NCBI RefSeq assembly: GCF_009392895.1 | Contig: NZ_CP045488.1 | Coordinates: 2,976,001-3,040,000, forward strand | Direction: 5' to 3' | DNA: 64,000 nt | Source of the DNA: Natronorubrum aibiense | GTDB lineage: Archaea; Halobacteriota; Halobacteria; Halobacteriales; Natrialbaceae | Part shown: piece after piece, positions 5,913 through 43,615 of the stretch | Layout: every line of letters starts with the position of its first letter | How positions within the stretch are numbered: position 1 is the stretch's first letter | The notes under the pieces: generated by a model | Told to the model about the DNA's origin: nothing | Databases searched by the model: none | What the model saw: only the letters and a program-made list of their open reading frames with translations | Program-made: the position numbers and the translations under genes

Positions 5913-5928
5913 TAACTGAAGTATGAAT

Positions 5929-6050
5929 GGAGGCGGCGAAACGAGTTTCCCAGAGGCTCGCGCACTCCAGTACTCACCGTAACGCAGGCGGGCTTATCTT
6001 CCGTGTTCGGGATGGGTACGGGAGGAACCCCGCCGCTGTGGCCGCCGTAA
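5929..6050 (-). rRNA. rrf: 5S ribosomal RNA
   Basis: Minus-strand sequence of about 122 nt matching haloarchaeal 5S: it begins TTACGGCGGCCACAGCGGC, contains CCCGTACCCATCCCGAACAC and AGTACTGGAGTGCGCGAGCC, and ends in the complementary GCCGCC segment. Ends are set by the terminal stem and may be off by one or two bases. It is the last rRNA of the operon. Confidence 0.95.
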
Positions 6051-6099
6051 CGCCGATCAACGGAATCGAACCGTCGTCACACCAGTATCGGTGGTCTCC

Positions 6100-6156
6100 G
6101 ACCGTGTGTATGTGTAGTCCAGTTTGCGTCCGGACCCGTTCACGCGTCACGGATCC
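6100..6156 (-). other. 23S rRNA processing stem, 3' arm
   Basis: This segment is the inverted complement of 9119-9171, interrupted by short unequal bulges around GGACGC. The two arms bring the 23S ends together into the long stem with a bulge-helix-bulge that archaeal splicing endonuclease cuts during pre-rRNA maturation. It occupies most of the 23S-5S spacer. Confidence 0.75.
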
Positions 6157-6167
6157 AATGCGATGTA

Positions 6168-9083
<2,916 letters not shown>

Positions 9084-9118
9084 GTTCATCGGATCGGCGT
9101 TGCGACAGAGTCGCAACA

Positions 9119-9171
9119 TCGTGACCCGGGAACGGGTCCAGTGGACGCCTGGACTACACGTACACACGGTC
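9119..9171 (-). other. 23S rRNA processing stem, 5' arm
   Basis: Complement of 6100-6156; together they form the precursor 23S stem. The near-identical reversed segments include ACGGGTCC, GGACGC and TGGACTACAC; the small length differences between arms supply the bulges of a bulge-helix-bulge site. Confidence 0.75.
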
Positions 9172-9312
9172 GCATCTGCACGCCGGTAGACGGCCGGCCT
9201 GCATTGACCCTTCCCACTCACACTTGCGCGGAGTGGTGCATCAGTTCAGTCGTACTCAATCATCCCTTCGTCTCCCACTTAAGGGGAGCGATTCGATGAT
9301 TGGTACGAGTCA

Positions 9313-9384
9313 TGGACCCACAGGGATTCGAACCCTGGGCATCCTCCTTGCAAAGGAGGCACTCTACCACTGAGCTATGGGCCC
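9313..9384 (-). tRNA. tRNA-Ala (anticodon TGC)
   Basis: A 72-nt tRNA on the minus strand in the 16S-23S spacer, the standard archaeal position. Acceptor stem GGGCCCA pairs with TGGGTCC with discriminator A. The D-arm contains GCTCAGTGGTAGAGT, the anticodon arm is CTCCTTTGCAAGGAG (TGC), and the T-arm is CAGGGTTCGAATCCCTG. CCA is not encoded. A perfect 10-bp hairpin (9386-9407) abuts the 5' end. Confidence 0.98.
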
Positions 9385-9385
9385 A

Positions 9386-9407
9386 TGTCCGCCCAGATGG
9401 GCGGACA
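9386..9407. other. perfect 10-bp hairpin next to tRNA-Ala
   Basis: TGTCCGCCCA and TGGGCGGACA form a perfect stem with a 2-base loop, immediately upstream of the tRNA 5' end in the pre-rRNA. It may guide tRNA excision or separate 16S and 23S processing. It is direct sequence symmetry without a known name. Confidence 0.55.
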
Positions 9408-9460
9408 GAGACATATGTGTTAGCCTCGGTAGTTCTGAGGTGCCCGATCGGCCGCGCGAT

Positions 9461-9480
9461 GGGTCGATCGAACGTGAAAA
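9461..9480 (-). other. 16S rRNA processing stem, 3' arm
   Basis: Contains CGAACGTG (9469-9476) and GGTC, complementary to CACGTTCG (11066-11073) and GACC upstream of 16S. The pair forms the core of the 16S precursor stem with flanking bulges. Confidence 0.6.
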
Positions 9481-9518
9481 TCGCTGGTGGGTCAGGACAG
9501 CGTCCTGATCCCGGTCTG

Positions 9519-10989
<1,471 letters not shown>

Positions 10990-31677: not shown

Positions 31678-33081
31678 TCATTCGCCACGAGCCTGCTCGA
31701 ACGCGGCGATGGCGCGTTCCCGGCGCTCGCCGTGGTCGACGATCGGCGCCGGATACGACGGCGCGAGCGTGACGCGGCGATCCGACTCGAGGGCGGGCCA
31801 GTCGTGGATCGTGTCGGCCGGAACGGCCTCGAGTTCGGGGACGTACTCGCGGATGTAATCGGCGTTCGGATCGTACTCGCGGCCCTGTTTGACGGGGTTG
31901 AACACCCGGAAGTACGGCTGGGCGTCGGTCCCGGTCGAGCCAGCCCACTGCCAGCCGCCGACGTCGTTGGCCGTCTCGTGGTCGGCCAGATTTCGACGGA
32001 ACCAGTCGTACCCTTCGCGCCAGTCGATCAGAAGGTCTTTCGTCAGGAAAGAGGCGACGAGCATCCGGACGCGGTTGTGCATCCACCCTTCGGATCGGAG
32101 CTGTCGCATCCCTGCGTCGACGATCGGATACCCCGTCTCGCCAGCTTTCCAGGCCTCGAGTTCGTCGGGGTCGTTGCGCCACGGAATGGCGTGTTCGTAC
32201 CCGCTGAAGTTCTCGGTGACTGTTTCGGGGTTGAACGCGAGGACGTGAGCGTAGAACTCCCGCCACGCGAGTTGACGCTGGAACGCGGTGACGCTCTCGC
32301 GGTCGTCGTCCGTCTCTGCTCGCTCGGCCGCCCGCTCTGTGGCCTCGTACACCTCTCGGATCCCGATCGTCCCCCATTTGAGATGGGGCGACAGCCGCGA
32401 CGTGCCGTCGATAGCCGGTTTGTCACGGTCGTCGGCGTACCGGTAGATCGGTTCCGAACAGAACTCGGTGACGCGCTCGCGGGCCGCCGCTTGCGTGACC
32501 GACTGTGGCGTCGCGGTCGGCTCGTCGAACCCCAACTCCGAGCGCGACGGCAGCGGCTCACCCATCACGTCAGCGAGCGCGTCCGCGGCAGGCGGCTCGA
32601 CTGGCTCGCGTTTCTCGCGGTCGCGCCACTTCTTCCAGAAGTACGAAAACACCGAGTAGTGGTCGCCCTCGTTGGGCGTGATCGACCCCGGCTCGTGGTG
32701 AATCGCGTCGTGGACTGTCTCACAGGCGACGCCGTCGTCCTCGAGCGCCGCCGTCACGGCCCGGTCGCGCTCGCGCGCGAGGCCGCTGTAGTCCTCGGCC
32801 CAGACGACGGCGTCAATGTCGTGCTCGGCAGCGAGTCGCGGAAGCACGTCGCTGGCCTCGCCACGGGCGACGAGCAGGTCGCTGCCGCGCTCGCGATACC
32901 ACTCGCGCAGCCCCTCGAGGGCCTCGAGGAGACAGGCGACACGGACGGGCGATGCGTGCTCGAGGATGATCGGATCGAAGACGAAGACGGGAACGACGGG
33001 ATCCGCTGATAAGGACACGGCACGGGCGAGCCCCCGGTTGTCGGTCCCGCGGAGATCGCGGCGGTGCCAGTAGAGGATCAT
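31678..33081 (-). CDS. deoxyribodipyrimidine photolyase (cryptochrome/photolyase family)
   Basis: A 467-residue FAD-dependent DNA repair enzyme that splits cyclobutane pyrimidine dimers with light. The N-terminal alpha/beta antenna domain begins MILYWHRRDLRGTDNRGLA. The FAD domain holds RLSPHLKWGTIGIREVY, WREFYAHVLAFN, MHNRVRMLVASFLTKDLLID and DVGGWQWAGSTGTDAQPYFR. All major FAD contacts seem intact. Start at ATG 33081 matches the family; the longer frame adds 17 residues. Confidence 0.95.
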   Translation of the reverse strand: MILYWHRRDLRGTDNRGLARAVSLSADPVVPVFVFDPIILEHASPVRVACLLEALEGLREWYRERGSDLLVARGEASDVLPRLAAEHDIDAVVWAEDYSGLARERDRAVTAALEDDGVACETVHDAIHHEPGSITPNEGDHYSVFSYFWKKWRDREKREPVEPPAADALADVMGEPLPSRSELGFDEPTATPQSVTQAAARERVTEFCSEPIYRYADDRDKPAIDGTSRLSPHLKWGTIGIREVYEATERAAERAETDDDRESVTAFQRQLAWREFYAHVLAFNPETVTENFSGYEHAIPWRNDPDELEAWKAGETGYPIVDAGMRQLRSEGWMHNRVRMLVASFLTKDLLIDWREGYDWFRRNLADHETANDVGGWQWAGSTGTDAQPYFRVFNPVKQGREYDPNADYIREYVPELEAVPADTIHDWPALESDRRVTLAPSYPAPIVDHGERRERAIAAFEQARGE

Positions 33082-35915: not shown

Positions 35916-36255
35916 ATGCACACCCGCCTATGCCACCACAGCGTATAGGACTTACTCTCGGATCGACATCTCGACGAGACGAATACCCAGCGTCGTCACA
36001 GCAGACCGAAACGGAGCGGGCGAGTGGAGAAAACAGTTCGGCCAATTTAGTATATAAATATGACAGTTATGAGCGAGATGTTCGGTTTTCGAAGACAGTG
36101 ATGAGTCTCTGAATGTCTATTAGTACAGACTATTGGATACATAACAATAGGTTATCGTATGGGGGCTTTCGCACGTGGACTCCGTTTCGATCGGTTGGCT
36201 GCCGATCAGTCGTCGAGCGGCACGAACACACCGAGAAACGGCCACGGAAAACACC
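35916..36255. other. AT-rich divergent intergenic region
   Basis: Holds the presumed promoter of the binding-protein gene (minus) and a strong plus-strand TATA (TATATAAATA, 36051-36060). The cetZ ATG is about 195 bp beyond that TATA, which is unusually far for a haloarchaeal promoter. Only a 13-codon open frame follows it. The stretch 36110-36170 is also AT-rich. Confidence 0.55.
36051..36060 (+). promoter_or_regulatory. strong isolated TATA box
   Basis: TATATAAATA is one of the best TATA matches in the window. Transcription would begin near 36085, giving either a long cetZ leader (about 170 nt) or a separate small RNA. Confidence 0.5.
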
Positions 36256-37426
36256 ATGAAACTCGCACTCATCGGTTTCGGGCAAGCAGGCGGCAAGGTA
36301 GTTGACCGATTTCTGACGTACGACGACGCGACCGACGGCGGCTTCGTCGAGAGCGGGATCGCGATCAACACCGCGACCACGGACCTCCGGGGCCTCGAGC
36401 GCGTCCCACAGGAGAATCGCGTCCTCATCGGTCAGGCCCGCGTCAACGGCCACGGCGTCGGCGCCGACAACGAACTCGGGGCCGAGGTCACCGAGGCGGA
36501 TATCGACGAGATTCAACACGCGATCGATCGGGTTCCGACCCACGAGATCGACGCGTTCCTCGTCGTCGCCGGCATGGGCGGTGGCACCGGCTCTGGCGGC
36601 GCACCCGTCCTCGCAAAACACCTGCGACGGATCTACACCCAGCCCGTCTACGGGCTCGGAATCCTCCCGGCGACGGACGAGGGCGGAATATACACGCTCA
36701 ACGCGGCTCGATCGTTCCGGACGTTCGTCCGCGAAGTGGACAACCTGCTCGTCTTCGACAACGACGACTGGCGCAGCGCCGGCGAATCGGTCGGAAGCGG
36801 CTACGACCGGATCAACCGCGAAATCGTCGAACGATTCGGCCTGCTGTTCGCCGCCGGCGAGGTCAGTCACGGCGACCACGTCGCCGAGAGTGTCGTGGAC
36901 TCTTCCGAGATCATCAACACCCTCTCGGGCGGCGGCGTCTCGACGATCGGCTACGCCACTGAAACCGTCGAGACCGACAGCGGCGGCCTGCTCAGTTCGT
37001 TCACCGGTTCGAGCAACAGCGACCTCGAGGATGGCGCGGCGACCAACCGGTTGACGAGCCTCGTCCGAAAGGCGACGCTGGGCCGGCTCACGCTACCGTG
37101 TGACGTCGCCAGCGCGGATCGGGGGCTCGTACGTCGCGACGGGCCAACCTGAACAGCTGAGCCGCAAAGGCGTCGAACGCGGGCGACAGTGGCTCGAGGA
37201 CGAGACAGGAAGCATGGAGATCCGTGGCGGCGACTCTCCGCGCCCCGACACCGACGAGGTCGGCGCCGTCGTCCTCCTGTCGGGCGTGACCACCGTCCCG
37301 CGGATCGACCAGCTCCAGCAGGTCGCCCTCGAGGCCAAGGAGACGACCGCGGACGTCCAAGCGAACGCTCGAGACGAGTTCGCGTCGCTCGTCGATACCG
37401 GCGGCGAACTCGACGCGCTCTTTTGA
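36256..37426 (+). pseudogene. cetZ: CetZ tubulin-like GTPase, frameshifted near residue 290
   Basis: CetZ proteins are archaeal tubulin/FtsZ-superfamily GTPases controlling cell shape. The first frame (36256 to about 37130) begins MKLALIGFGQAGGKVVDRFL and contains the GTP-binding loop GMGGGTGSGG. It then runs out of homology after DVASADRGLV, with a stop at 37150-37152. Homology continues in the next frame as VATGQPEQLSRKGVERG, then TGSMEIRGGD and VVLLSGVTTVPRI, to the stop at 37424-37426. A single extra base or two missing bases near 37130 accounts for the break. Otherwise the gene is full-length (about 390 codons). It may be a real mutation or a sequencing error. Confidence 0.85.
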
Positions 37427-38865: not shown

Positions 38866-40059
38866 TTACTCAATCATTTCTGCGAACGATTCTGCGAGCG
38901 CTCCTGTATCGTCGGTTTCCGCCCGAAGACGGGTCACCACGTCCGAAATATCCGTTTTCGAACCAACGACCAACGGTTGTTCACTGTCCACATACTGCAC
39001 ACCTGGGCTGGCATCTTCGACGACTGCCGCAACCGTGGCTCGAGCGTCGGTGTCGAGGCCATCGATCTCGAGAGCGATCGTCGACCAGTCGTCCGCAACC
39101 GATGGATCGACGCCACGCTCCGAAAGATAGGCTCGGAGGTCGCTACTCGAGCAGACGTCGAGCCGGGAGACCGACACGCCGTCCGTGACTGCGCACGCGC
39201 GCTCGGTGAATGCATTTCCGATCAGGGCGGCATCCCGGGTCGCGGCGACGTCGTGAGTCCGGATCACGTGTGCGCCGCGCTCGACGGCCATCGACGTGGC
39301 CGCGAGGCTAACCGGTAGTCGCTCGTCGGTGTCGCGGCCGGCGAGTTCACCCAAGAAGTTCTTCCGGTTGATCGAAACCAGCATGGGCTGGCCGAGCGCG
39401 CGGAACTCCCGCAGTCGGCGGAACGTCTCCCGATCATCCGCGAGCGTCTGAGCCTCGCTCCAGCCGCCGAAGGCCGGATCGACGATCGTCTTGTCGGTCA
39501 TGCCATTCTGTTTCAGCGCTTCGTACACCTGGTCGACGTAGCCCGCCTGTTCGGCCCACTCCGGCGATTTCCGTTCGGACCACGGAGTCTCCTCGACGGC
39601 ACCCGGCCGCTCGAGGTCCGGCGGACTCGCCATCTTCGCGACGGCCACGTCGTGGTCTGCACAGACGACTGGCATCTCCGGATCGGCGAAGCCAGCGATG
39701 TCGTTGACCATGTCGAATCCTCGCTCGAGTGCTTCCTCGGCGACCGACGCATAGCGCGTCTCGATCGAAAAAATCGCCTCACCCGACACGTGATCGATCG
39801 TCTCGAGGGCGATGTGGAGTCGATCGAGTTCTTCCTCGGCAGAGAGCACGTCAAAGCGTTTGTTCGCCGACTCGAGGCCGATATCGACGATGTCGGCCCC
39901 CGCACCGATCAGTTCCTCGTCGACGTACTGAGCCGCCTCCCCGGGGTCGTCGTAGACGCTCGGATCGTAGGGCGACTCCTCACTGACGTTGAGAACCCCC
40001 ATGATTCGAGGCGGGTGGTCGTCGCCGATTCCCAGCCCCGCCGCGTCGACACTGTTCAT
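38866..40059 (-). CDS. dihydropteroate synthase-like protein
   Basis: A 397-residue pterin-binding TIM barrel. It starts PPRIMGVLNVSEESPYDPSV (compare the DHPS ILNVTPDSF motif) and continues with GADIVDIGLESANKR where classic DHPS has DIGGESTRPG, then MVNDIAGFADPEM and LVSINRKNFLG. The barrel is followed by a unique region of about 110 residues. The altered motifs suggest it may use a different acceptor from p-aminobenzoate or be a variant enzyme. Adjacent to mptE, supporting a pterin role. Start ATG 40059. Confidence 0.82.
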   Translation of the reverse strand: MNSVDAAGLGIGDDHPPRIMGVLNVSEESPYDPSVYDDPGEAAQYVDEELIGAGADIVDIGLESANKRFDVLSAEEELDRLHIALETIDHVSGEAIFSIETRYASVAEEALERGFDMVNDIAGFADPEMPVVCADHDVAVAKMASPPDLERPGAVEETPWSERKSPEWAEQAGYVDQVYEALKQNGMTDKTIVDPAFGGWSEAQTLADDRETFRRLREFRALGQPMLVSINRKNFLGELAGRDTDERLPVSLAATSMAVERGAHVIRTHDVAATRDAALIGNAFTERACAVTDGVSVSRLDVCSSSDLRAYLSERGVDPSVADDWSTIALEIDGLDTDARATVAAVVEDASPGVQYVDSEQPLVVGSKTDISDVVTRLRAETDDTGALAESFAEMIE

Positions 40060-40182
40060 ACGCCCTCTGTGGATGGCAGCCTGAAATGTACCGCGGTTGC
40101 GGAGAATCGCACACCGTCCAACCCCGCCCGGCTGCGTGGCGATCAGCTCCGGAGACCGCAAGCGAGGTGAGTCACGGACGGG

Positions 40183-40560: not shown

Positions 40561-41799
40561 TTACTCAGACGTTCCGTCGTCCTCGAGGACGGCCAATCGC
40601 GAGTCCCGCAGGAGGACTTTCCTGACGATCGAGGGGTTCTCGAGCAGTCGGTGTTTGGCGTGAGCGCCGCGGCCGCGGCCGCGACCCTCGCGTTCGGACT
40701 GGATTACGTTGAGGAAGTTCTGCTCTTGAAGGATCTCCTGGACGCGACGTTCCGAGAGGACATCGAAGTCGAGTCTGCGAGCGACCTCCTTGTACTGGTT
40801 GTAGATGATCTTTGTCGGGAACTCCTTCTCGCTGCTGTTCTCAGTCAGCAGCGTCAGCGAGTAGAGGATCGCTTTGGCCTGCTGTGGAGAGCCTTCGATC
40901 AACTCGTTGAACCGGTCGGCTTCGGTCTTCTCTTTGGCGTCGCGGACGTGGTCGGCGGTGACCTGCGTGTCGTTTCGCTTTTTCGCGATGCGACCCGCGT
41001 TCCGGAGAATATCGATCGCCTTACGGGCGTCGCCGTGTTCCTGAGCGGCGAGCGCGGCAGTCAGCGGAATTACGTCGTCTGAGAGGACGTCGTCGTGGAA
41101 CGCATCCCGTCGCTTCTCTAGAATTTCGACGAGCTGGTTGGCATCGTACGGCGAGAAGACGAGTTCGTCCCGGGAGAGACTCGATTTGACGCGTTCGGAG
41201 AGATGATCCGGGAAATCGATCTTGTTCGAGATGCCGATAATGCCGATACTCGAGTCCGAAATCCGACGATTCTCGCCGGCACGGGAGAGTTTCCGGAGGA
41301 CTTCGTCGTCCTCGAGCATGTCGATTTCGTCCAAGATGACGATGGTAACGTCGGTGCAGTGGTCGACGGCCTGCCAGAGTCGTTTGTAGTAGTCGCCGGT
41401 GCCAAGACCGCGGTCGGGAACGGTGACGCCGCTTTTTTCGGAGTCGTTGACGATCTGGGCGATCGTCTTGACGATCGACGCTTCAGTGTTCTGTTCCCCG
41501 CAGTCGATGAAGGCGTACTTGACGGTGACGTCGTCGCGTCGGGCTTCCGAGATCACCCGCTGTGTGACCGACCGCGAGATGAGCGACTTCCCGGTCCCGG
41601 TCTTGCCGAAAATGAACAGGTGGTTGGGCTCGCTCCCGAAAATAGCGGGATTCAGGGCGTCCGCAACCCGTTGCATCTGCTCGTCGCGTCCGACGATCCG
41701 GTCCGGACCGGGTAGGTGTGTGATCTCGAGCAAGCGCTCGTCGGCGAAGACCGGATCGTCGTACCGAAAGAGTGGATCACGATCGTCGTTAGCGGACAT
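40561..41799 (-). CDS. orc1/cdc6: Orc1/Cdc6 family replication initiator
   Basis: A 412-residue AAA+ origin-binding initiator. Walker A is FGKTGTGKSLI, Walker B is VTIVILDEIDMLE, sensor 1 is IGIISNK-like (GIIGISNKIDF), and sensor 2 lies in HGDARKAIDILRNAGRIA. The C-terminal winged helix (residues about 300-400) carries the ORB-recognising helix. Start ATG 41799. The gene lies right beside a cluster of ORB-like repeats (41989-42360), the usual haloarchaeal pairing of initiator and cognate origin. Confidence 0.95.
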   Translation of the reverse strand: MSANDDRDPLFRYDDPVFADERLLEITHLPGPDRIVGRDEQMQRVADALNPAIFGSEPNHLFIFGKTGTGKSLISRSVTQRVISEARRDDVTVKYAFIDCGEQNTEASIVKTIAQIVNDSEKSGVTVPDRGLGTGDYYKRLWQAVDHCTDVTIVILDEIDMLEDDEVLRKLSRAGENRRISDSSIGIIGISNKIDFPDHLSERVKSSLSRDELVFSPYDANQLVEILEKRRDAFHDDVLSDDVIPLTAALAAQEHGDARKAIDILRNAGRIAKKRNDTQVTADHVRDAKEKTEADRFNELIEGSPQQAKAILYSLTLLTENSSEKEFPTKIIYNQYKEVARRLDFDVLSERRVQEILQEQNFLNVIQSEREGRGRGRGAHAKHRLLENPSIVRKVLLRDSRLAVLEDDGTSE

Positions 41800-41988
41800 T
41801 TCGTTACCCCGTGGCTTCCAACTGAACTGAAATAAAGGTATGGAGATCGATCGCGGATGTAAATATCGAACGATAGCCGATGAAGCCCTAAATATTACGG
41901 GATGCGCGAAGGAGAAGTCAAACAGCGGTCTCGCGTTTCTAAACGGGAAGCGATCGATCCGGAATCGACTCGAGTGTGTGAACCACCG

Positions 41989-42009
41989 ACACCCCCGTCG
42001 CGGATGTAA
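41989..42009 (-). repeat. ORB-like repeat 1
   Basis: Minus strand reads TTACATCCGCGAC followed by GGGGGTGT. Outer copy on the orc1 side; G-run points toward orc1. Confidence 0.7.
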
Positions 42010-42193
42010 CACGACTGGAGCGGACCAGCACGCGGCCGGTAGCAAGTCGAGATAGCCGCCACAATACGCGATGTGGATTATGGTTACAAGAGAGACACGA
42101 TGTTGGACGGAGTCGAGGGACGCTCCGTAAACGCCGGCGAAGCGGGCGGTACGCCTGCGACTCGAGGGAACTGGCAGTCGCTGGAGGGGGGAC

Positions 42194-42214
42194 ACACCCC
42201 CCTCGCGTTTGTAA
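42194..42214 (-). repeat. ORB-like repeat 2
   Basis: Minus strand reads TTACAAACGCGAG followed by GGGGGTGT. It is the exact inverse of repeat 4 over the full 21 bp; G-run points toward orc1. Confidence 0.75.
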
Positions 42215-42284
42215 CGGCGAATGGGTGGGATGGGTGTTCGATTATTCCCGAATTCATGTCGATTCGAGACTCAAAAGCCCGGTT

Positions 42285-42305
42285 TTACATCCGCGAAGGA
42301 GGTGT
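42285..42305 (+). repeat. ORB-like repeat 3
   Basis: Plus strand reads TTACATCCGCGAA followed by GGAGGTGT; shares TTACATCCGCGA with repeat 1. G-run points away from orc1. Confidence 0.65.
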
Positions 42306-42339
42306 GTTCCACGTAGAGACCCCCCCTACCATTGTGGCG

Positions 42340-42360
42340 TTACAAACGCGAGGGGGGTGT
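42340..42360 (+). repeat. ORB-like repeat 4
   Basis: Plus strand reads TTACAAACGCGAG followed by GGGGGTGT; identical to repeat 2 in opposite orientation. Confidence 0.75.
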
Positions 42361-42510
42361 GTGTCCCCTCCGGCGCCGAATAACCACAGGCCATCATCGA
42401 AACGAATACACGAAACACCCGTTCAATCACCTTAGACCAAAGATTTCGTCACTAAATCGGAGACTACTCGAGGGAAGGAGCGAAAGCGGACCCCGAACAG
42501 GGTGGAACCA

Positions 42511-42590
42511 CTATTCATTCTAGTACTAGACTACTATTTACTACTAGAGTTTGTTCTAGTACCAGAGTGACTACTAGAGTGAGTGTCAAA
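42511..42590. repeat. AT-rich tract with direct repeats beside the origin
   Basis: CTACTAGAGT occurs at 42541-42550 and 42571-42580 (30-bp period), TTCTAGTAC at 42518-42526 and 42554-42562, and CTAGTACTAG is palindromic. The tract is far more AT-rich than its surroundings. It may be an unwinding element or a binding-site array. Confidence 0.5.
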
Positions 42591-42719
42591 ATCTACCATT
42601 GCGGTCCCAGAGACTCCGTCACTCGAGCCCACCTTCCCGACGTCGTGTCCCGTCTCTGTCTATCTGCAGCCGTCCGTGACGAACACGTTCCTTTTGACTG
42701 CCCACTCCTTACCTCCGAT

Positions 42720-42845
42720 ATGCACGCTTTGACTCCCATTTCGCCCCCTCTCGAGCCAACGGATCCGCTCGGACCCACAGCCAGAACCGACAGACGCGAA
42801 CCGAATCACACCGCTCTCGAGTTCGGTGTTCTCGACGACCAATGA
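42720..42845 (+). CDS. possible 41-residue leader peptide coupled to trmJ
   Basis: A short frame from ATG 42720 (MHALTPISPPLEPTDPLGPT, then further to VLDDQ) ends in TGA overlapping the next gene's ATG (ATGA at 42842-42845). CCTTTTGAC lies about 28 bp before its start, and no such box precedes the methyltransferase ATG. It may couple translation of the downstream gene. The sequence is Pro/Thr rich and not recognised; it may also simply be untranslated leader. Confidence 0.3.
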   Translation: MHALTPISPPLEPTDPLGPTARTDRREPNHTALEFGVLDDQ

Positions 42846-43615
42846 CGGCTGACTCGTCCGCATCCGATGACTCGAGCAAGCTGACACGGACGCCGCCATC
42901 GGTCGCCGTCGTCGACGCACAGTCGCCGGGCAACGTCGGAACGATCGCTCGCGCGATGAAGAATTTCGGATTCGATGATCTCCTGTTGGTCGATCCGCCA
43001 GAACTCGATCCCGACGGCCCCGCCTACGGCTTCGCCGGGCACGCTCGAGACGATATTCTCCCGAACGCGACGGAGATTTCGTTCGACCGCCTCGTCGAAA
43101 ACTACCACACGATCGGCTGTACGGCGGTGACCAACGAAGACGATCACAGCCACGTTCGGTTCCCGTACTCGACGCCGGCCGAACTGGTCGACCGGTTAGC
43201 GACCGTCGAGGCACCCACTGCACTCGTCTTCGGCCGTGAACGGATCGGCCTCACCAACGAGGAACTCGCCCGAATCGACGAGATCTGCTCGATTCCGGCC
43301 GCCGCGGAGTATCCCGTGCTCAATCTCGGGCAGGCCGCGACGATCACTCTCTACGAACTGCAGTCGCTCACGCTCGCCGCCGACGAGACCCAACTGCCGG
43401 ATGTCGAGCGCGTTCGGGCTCCCGAACCGACGATAGACCGCGTTTACGACCAGTGGGCCGCGCTACTCGAGGAACTCAACCATCCCGAGGAGAAACGCGC
43501 AAAGACGATGCGTATGCTCCGGCGCGTCTACGGGCGGGCGGACCTAACGACGGGCGAAGCGAACACCCTGCTCGGGCTCCTCCGTCGAGCGACGGAACGG
43601 CCGGCAGAGGACTGA
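42842..43615 (+). CDS. trmJ: tRNA 2'-O-methyltransferase, TrmJ-type SPOUT family
   Basis: A 257-residue SPOUT methyltransferase that modifies the ribose of tRNA, in archaea at position 32. The N-terminal segment VAVVDAQSPGNVGTIARAMK and the knot motifs ALVFGRERIGLTNEEL and YPVLNLGQAATITLYELQS provide the S-adenosylmethionine-binding trefoil knot. The C-terminal helical part (about 190-257) resembles TrmJ's extension. Start overlaps a possible 41-residue leader frame by ATGA. Confidence 0.92.
   Translation: MTADSSASDDSSKLTRTPPSVAVVDAQSPGNVGTIARAMKNFGFDDLLLVDPPELDPDGPAYGFAGHARDDILPNATEISFDRLVENYHTIGCTAVTNEDDHSHVRFPYSTPAELVDRLATVEAPTALVFGRERIGLTNEELARIDEICSIPAAAEYPVLNLGQAATITLYELQSLTLAADETQLPDVERVRAPEPTIDRVYDQWAALLEELNHPEEKRAKTMRMLRRVYGRADLTTGEANTLLGLLRRATERPAED

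Follow-up and report, generated by a model that had tools for sequence, protein, structure and literature searches.

A probable orc1/cdc6-linked chromosomal replication origin between folP and trmJ in Natronorubrum aibiense and its relatives

Described haloarchaeal origins and the folP-trmJ locus

Independent replication has been reported for pFJ5 (ARS-5/oriC9 of Natrinema sp. J7) at fewer than 10 cfu/ug, compared with about 2000 cfu/ug for ARS-1, -4 and -6 (PMC5350488). We analyzed a 64-kb window (the whole stretch of Natronorubrum aibiense DNA under study) in which the orthologous locus lies between folP and trmJ. The two primers used to clone ARS-5 have exact matches in the Natrinema gari ortholog, on either side of its orc gene, its ORBs and the start of trmJ, so that ARS-5 and the locus described here are orthologous. 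Given this match and the replication of pFJ5, the kind of locus, and in effect the locus itself, was already known. Ori-Finder 2 gave one ORB for ARS-5, whereas we recognise four ORBs in the ortholog of N. gari and in related genomes, along with mini-ORBs and a CTAG array. What is new beyond the ARS-5 work is the full anatomy of the locus, its history and the CTAG array.

The origin families of Wu et al. (2012) resemble this locus in having inverted, G-string-ended ORBs in the intergenic region upstream of a cognate orc/cdc6 gene; membership of the families oriC1, oriCa and oriCb requires an Orc identity of at least 80% (PMC3528665), whereas the Orc studied here shares 69% identity with its relatives in Haloferax. 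Published H. volcanii primers for orc1 to orc5 and orc9 gave no good match to the Haloferax loci with this Orc type, and we therefore dropped an identity with H. volcanii orc2 or orc5 (oriCa/oriCb). The Haloferax relative (410 aa) might be orc6 of pHV3, a guess from the equal length that we recomputed from the published gene table.

Also similar are oriC1-cdc6A of Haloarcula hispanica and the oriC1 of N. aibiense itself, both of which have inverted ORBs with outward G-strings; a G-rich tract inside the ORB pair is common to the Haloarcula oriC1 and the folP-trmJ origin. Both use a TTCCA..GAAAC box and another Orc paralog, whereas the box here is TTACA..CGCGA. The N. aibiense oriC1 also has a CTAG cluster, which lies between its ORBs and not beside an outer one. 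The oriC1 family is marked by the TTCCA..GAAAC box and by an Orc that all haloarchaea conserve; the folP-trmJ locus is outside it, as its box is not TTCCA..GAAAC and oriC1 is found elsewhere on the chromosome (C1:1.257 Mb).

The sequence-only reading had proposed a haloarchaeal orc1/cdc6-linked origin at this place. This assignment of kind stood, by the inverted ORBs, the cognate Orc, the conservation of the locus, its plasmid relatives and the weakly replicating ARS ortholog; two companion ideas, a lineage-specific box and a GC-skew test, did not. We consider it very likely that the locus is a chromosomal origin which was captured once, and at which Orc would bind the ORBs, DNA would melt and orc expression would be autoregulated; this view is drawn from the sequence, and firing in vivo is what we infer from it.

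ORB layout and its pairing with one Orc family

The initiator gene (40561-41799, minus strand, 412 aa) is transcribed away from the origin, as had been proposed. Its product is a complete Orc1/Cdc6 that matches TIGR02928 over the full length (411.9 bits against a cut-off of 181.3, E 2e-123), and its best PDB matches are the archaeal Cdc6 homologs 2v1u and 2qby. The intergenic region holding the repeats directly adjoins this full-length gene, with the ORBs at 190-560 bp from it.

All four 21-bp repeats claimed from the letters alone were recovered at the expected positions and strands, each matching TTACANNCGCGANGGNGGTGT with no mismatch: ORB1 (41989-42009) and ORB2 (42194-42214) on the minus strand, and ORB3 (42285-42305) and ORB4 (42340-42360) on the plus strand. 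ORB2 and ORB4 are indeed exact inverse copies, both being TTACAAACGCGAGGGGGGTGT, and at ORB4 the exact 21-mer is kept by most relatives. When the 21-mer search that had been suggested was run over the 4.35-Mb genome, the four repeats were the sole exact matches and the next best had two mismatches, which excludes a chance occurrence. The G-strings of all four ORBs, including the outward one of ORB1, face away from the core, as they do at oriC1 of the same genome, so that at least two inverted, G-string-ended ORBs are present. The G-string of ORB3 is weak, and in relatives its box is conserved while the G-string is degenerate.

The symmetric arrangement described earlier holds for the inner three repeats, which are fixed in 15 genomes (offsets of 90-92 bp for ORB2-ORB3, 54-56 bp for ORB3-ORB4 and 144-148 bp for ORB2-ORB4), but not for the gap between ORB1 and ORB2, which differs between species. 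In the alignment of relatives, the sequence between ORB2, ORB3 and ORB4 drifts while the boxes and their spacing stay constant.

Beyond the four ORBs first noticed, the 12-bp box occurs twice more in conserved form but lacking a G-string (mini-ORBs). The first (41851-41862, minus strand) adjoins the orc promoter and has the form TTACA-N2-CGCGA in 19/19 aligned regions; the second, TTAGAAACGCGA (41931-41942, minus strand), is degenerate but its CGCGA core is present in all 19 as well. Seven copies of TTANANNCGCGA occur in the 64-kb window, six of them inside the 500-bp origin region. One more 12-bp box, TTACATCCGCGA, stands isolated at 31847 (minus strand), 10 kb away from the origin.

A TATA-like box, TTTATTTCA, lies about 30 bp before the ATG of orc (41828-41836, minus strand); it reads TTTATTTCA in 18 of the 19 aligned orthologous regions and TTTATTTCG in the remaining one, and it stands in near-fixed register with the first mini-ORB. 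This mini-ORB is probably an autoregulatory site, to judge from its place at the promoter. One could go further and suppose that the repeats as a whole chiefly regulate orc expression or titrate Orc and start no replication, since the promoter mini-ORB is present in 19/19 genomes and initiator-titrating ORB clusters are known downstream of Haloarcula cdc6E. However, four inverted G-string ORBs at their distance from the gene, together with an AT-rich segment, exceed what an operator calls for, plasmid relatives have the same layout, and ARS-5 replicates; we regard this explanation as improbable.

The TTACA-N2-CGCGA box was correctly described as unlike the TTCCA/GAAAC form, which we located at oriC1 of the same genome. 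The suggestion that it is a lineage-specific ORB had to be rejected in that simple form, because the box spans several families and is also found in Haloferax, in Haladaptatus and in further haloarchaea; it follows the Orc family. In a survey of 292 genomes of the class, in which at least 64% identity was required of an Orc ortholog, the exact ORB was found in 82 genomes and the ortholog in 87, with 81 having both. The ORB was thus carried by 81/87 genomes with the ortholog against 1/205 without it, and within Natrialbaceae by 58/58 against 0/17, while a reversed control pattern gave no exact match in any listed genome of the survey. ORB presence tracks ortholog presence, so this ORB belongs to a single Orc family and is not confined to one lineage; Wu et al. 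(2012) likewise report that haloarchaeal ORB type follows Orc family (PMC3528665).

Within the genome collection, 29 contigs contain the exact 21-mer of ORB2 and ORB4; they belong to Natrialbaceae, Haloferax and Halobium. Most of these contigs have four to six related repeats in an inverted arrangement, and the ortholog stands beside the repeats wherever the contig reaches far enough, at 95-97% identity in Natrialbaceae and about 69% in Haloferax. The other orc genes of the N. aibiense genome mostly have different boxes of their own, as would be expected of cognate Orc-ORB pairs. The single genome in which an exact ORB occurs with no close Orc ortholog has it at G275:C1:2529000-2541000. Two viral contigs have one exact ORB match each, with no more in viral contigs; these could be initiator decoys or chance matches.

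Candidate unwinding elements and the CTAG array

In the proposed mechanism, Orc from the adjoining gene would bind the inverted G-string ORBs at their fixed spacing and distort AT-rich DNA, which could be the core or else the stretch rich in AT and CTAG that adjoins ORB4; it would then load the MCM helicase, and through the mini-ORB at its promoter the same Orc would limit its own synthesis.

The core inside the inner repeat pair is 70 bp long, as had been stated (42215-42284), and is a candidate unwinding element. It holds a local stability minimum in the mean of 15 genomes, but at 51% GC it shows no strong AT-richness, with a G-rich left part and an AT-richer centre. By nearest-neighbour duplex energy, the least stable 50 bp of the entire window lies at 42511-42560, which is outside ORB4 and not between the ORBs, and this segment is a second candidate. 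The earlier picture was of an unwinding element flanked by ORBs; one possible interpretation of the stability profile is that the element lies beside the ORBs rather than within the core.

The least stable segment overlaps an array of five CTAG in 58 bp (42520-42577) beside ORB4, upstream of orc1/cdc6. CTAG is rare here (141 in 400 kb), and the array is the densest cluster in those 400 kb. Three or more CTAG within about 70 bp occur at just five places on the 3.35-Mb chromosome C1, three of which are at orc-linked regions, namely oriC1, the orc at 2.483 Mb and the folP-trmJ origin; a rough binomial estimate for this coincidence is 6e-7. At oriC1 (cluster C1:1256375) and at the 2.483 Mb orc the cluster lies between inverted ORBs. 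In each of the 17 relatives examined, at least two CTAG lie past ORB4 towards trmJ. Tight CTAG triples occur at one to about six places per complete genome, and in seven of eight complete genomes one lies no more than about 2 kb upstream of orc, the G029 genome being the exception.

A CTAG-type methylase homolog is encoded at C1:3173171, 49.5% identical over 92% to a Methanothermobacter plasmid methylase, which we take to be M.MthZI. The array is a candidate m4C-methylation cluster and is probably methylated. Blow et al. (2016) described clusters of CTAG where haloarchaeal orc1/cdc6 genes start and reported that they correlate with an orphan m4C methylase (PMC4752239). The present locus is alike in its CTAG cluster upstream of orc and in the methylase homolog, but unlike in that study the cluster is assigned to a single, named origin and is conserved across relatives. 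In H. volcanii, CTAG enrichment was found at one origin only, oriC2, and a role was doubted (Ouellette et al. 2018, PMC5867850).

The array may serve in unwinding, as a methylation switch, in both ways or in neither. By analogy with Dam/SeqA at E. coli oriC, it might be a working part of the origin: methylated by the conserved orphan m4C methylase, hemimethylated once the fork has passed, and sitting in the melting segment, it might govern re-firing; we offer this as a speculation that is rather unlikely to be right. If it were true, CTAG clusters would tell real chromosomal origins among the many orc-linked loci. The array in any case gives a concrete site at which to test the role of the orphan CTAG methylase in replication control, which has been both proposed and doubted in print.

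Chromosomal position, possible dormancy and descent

The origin lies at C1:3.018 Mb, almost opposite oriC1; the arc between the two is 0.475 of the circle here and 0.39-0.50 across 19 genomes. An rRNA operon (5S, 23S, tRNA-Ala and 16S, by Rfam matches; 5928-10989, minus strand) is transcribed away from the origin at a distance of 33 kb in the window. In 19/19 genomes, that of the window included, an outward rRNA operon lies 23-107 kb from the origin, whereas in nine genomes lacking the cassette the distance from trmJ to the nearest rRNA operon is 191-1882 kb. The 19 genomes share ancestry, and neither the rRNA nor the arc counts are independent. Outward rRNA operons close to origins are known in Haloferax and Haloarcula (PMC4441112). 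The window also encodes an FtsZ/CetZ-like tubulin family protein (36175-37152), about 4 kb from orc, which scores below the FtsZ cut-off.

The GC-skew flip expected at 42.2 kb was absent. Over 400 kb around the origin and around oriC1, the skew was flat at both and gene-strand bias gave no signal at either; as oriC1 shows no flip, GC skew is uninformative as an origin test in this genome.

Since the Natrinema ortholog showed very weak ARS activity, this origin, too, could be a weak one or lie dormant. In that case the machinery would be intact and Orc would bind, with rare firing while oriC1 is active, a situation that overlaps with our preferred explanation. The gap between the ARS-5 yield (fewer than 10 cfu/ug) and that of ARS-1, -4 and -6 (about 2000) speaks for this, and ORB-bearing dormant origins are documented, such as oriC4-cdc6H of Haloferax mediterranei (PMC4595724). 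However, the H. mediterranei oriC4 is patchy and lies in a variable region (PMC4595724), whereas the conserved ORB spacing, the outward rRNA operon and the position nearly opposite oriC1 suggest use. Few transformants may also be the result of incompatibility between the plasmid and the copy on the chromosome, an effect that has been reported for Haloarcula oriC2. Dormancy seems to us a real but lesser possibility, and the reading we prefer remains an orc1/cdc6-linked chromosomal origin.

The cassette is flanked on the left by a folP-type dihydropteroate synthase gene (38866-40161, minus strand; TIGR01496 above cut-off) and on the right by a trmJ-type RNA methyltransferase gene (42842-43615, plus strand; TIGR00050 above cut-off). 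The order folP, orc, origin, trmJ is found in a clade around Natronorubrum, Natrinema, Natronococcus and Halopiger. In Natrialbaceae lacking the cassette, orc is absent and folP adjoins trmJ where the stretch shows both, and relic ORBs sought at the empty folP-trmJ sites of these relatives were not found. In the trmJ tree, presence of the cassette occupies one side of a single branch (support 89/89) with the lineages lacking it opposite, and trmJ of the window is closest to that of Natronorubrum sulfidifaciens; in the Orc tree, the syntenic copies group together as a single clade (support 100/99). That one clade has the cassette at the folP-trmJ spot and relatives lack it there suggests a single capture.

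The copies nearest to the syntenic Orc clade are either carried by megaplasmids (768 kb in Natrononativus, 417 kb in Natronosalvus) or located elsewhere on chromosomes. The related megaplasmids share the Orc type and ORBs in the same layout, and on the 417-kb Natronosalvus plasmid this Orc type is at the sole Orc place found. The simplest reading of the trees and gene orders is that the cassette was probably captured once between folP and trmJ from a megaplasmid-type replicon and then inherited vertically; the direction of transfer, from megaplasmid type to chromosome, is likewise what we infer. The megaplasmid kinship might also be taken to mean that the locus is a functionless, decaying relic of an integrated plasmid. 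This is extremely improbable, as Orc is intact and highly conserved in many genera, and the ORBs and their spacing are clearly constrained.

The 987-kb CP031304.1 of Natrinema thermotolerans A29 (‘plasmid unnamed6’) carries trmJ-origin-orc-folP together with a CTAG methylase homolog, and it may therefore be a chromosome fragment, or a chromosome that has split and replicates from this origin.

The cassette bears on the question of how archaeal chromosomes acquire extra origins. It appears to have entered one time at a defined spot, with relatives that have the empty site, and to have been retained since, with an outward rRNA operon nearby.
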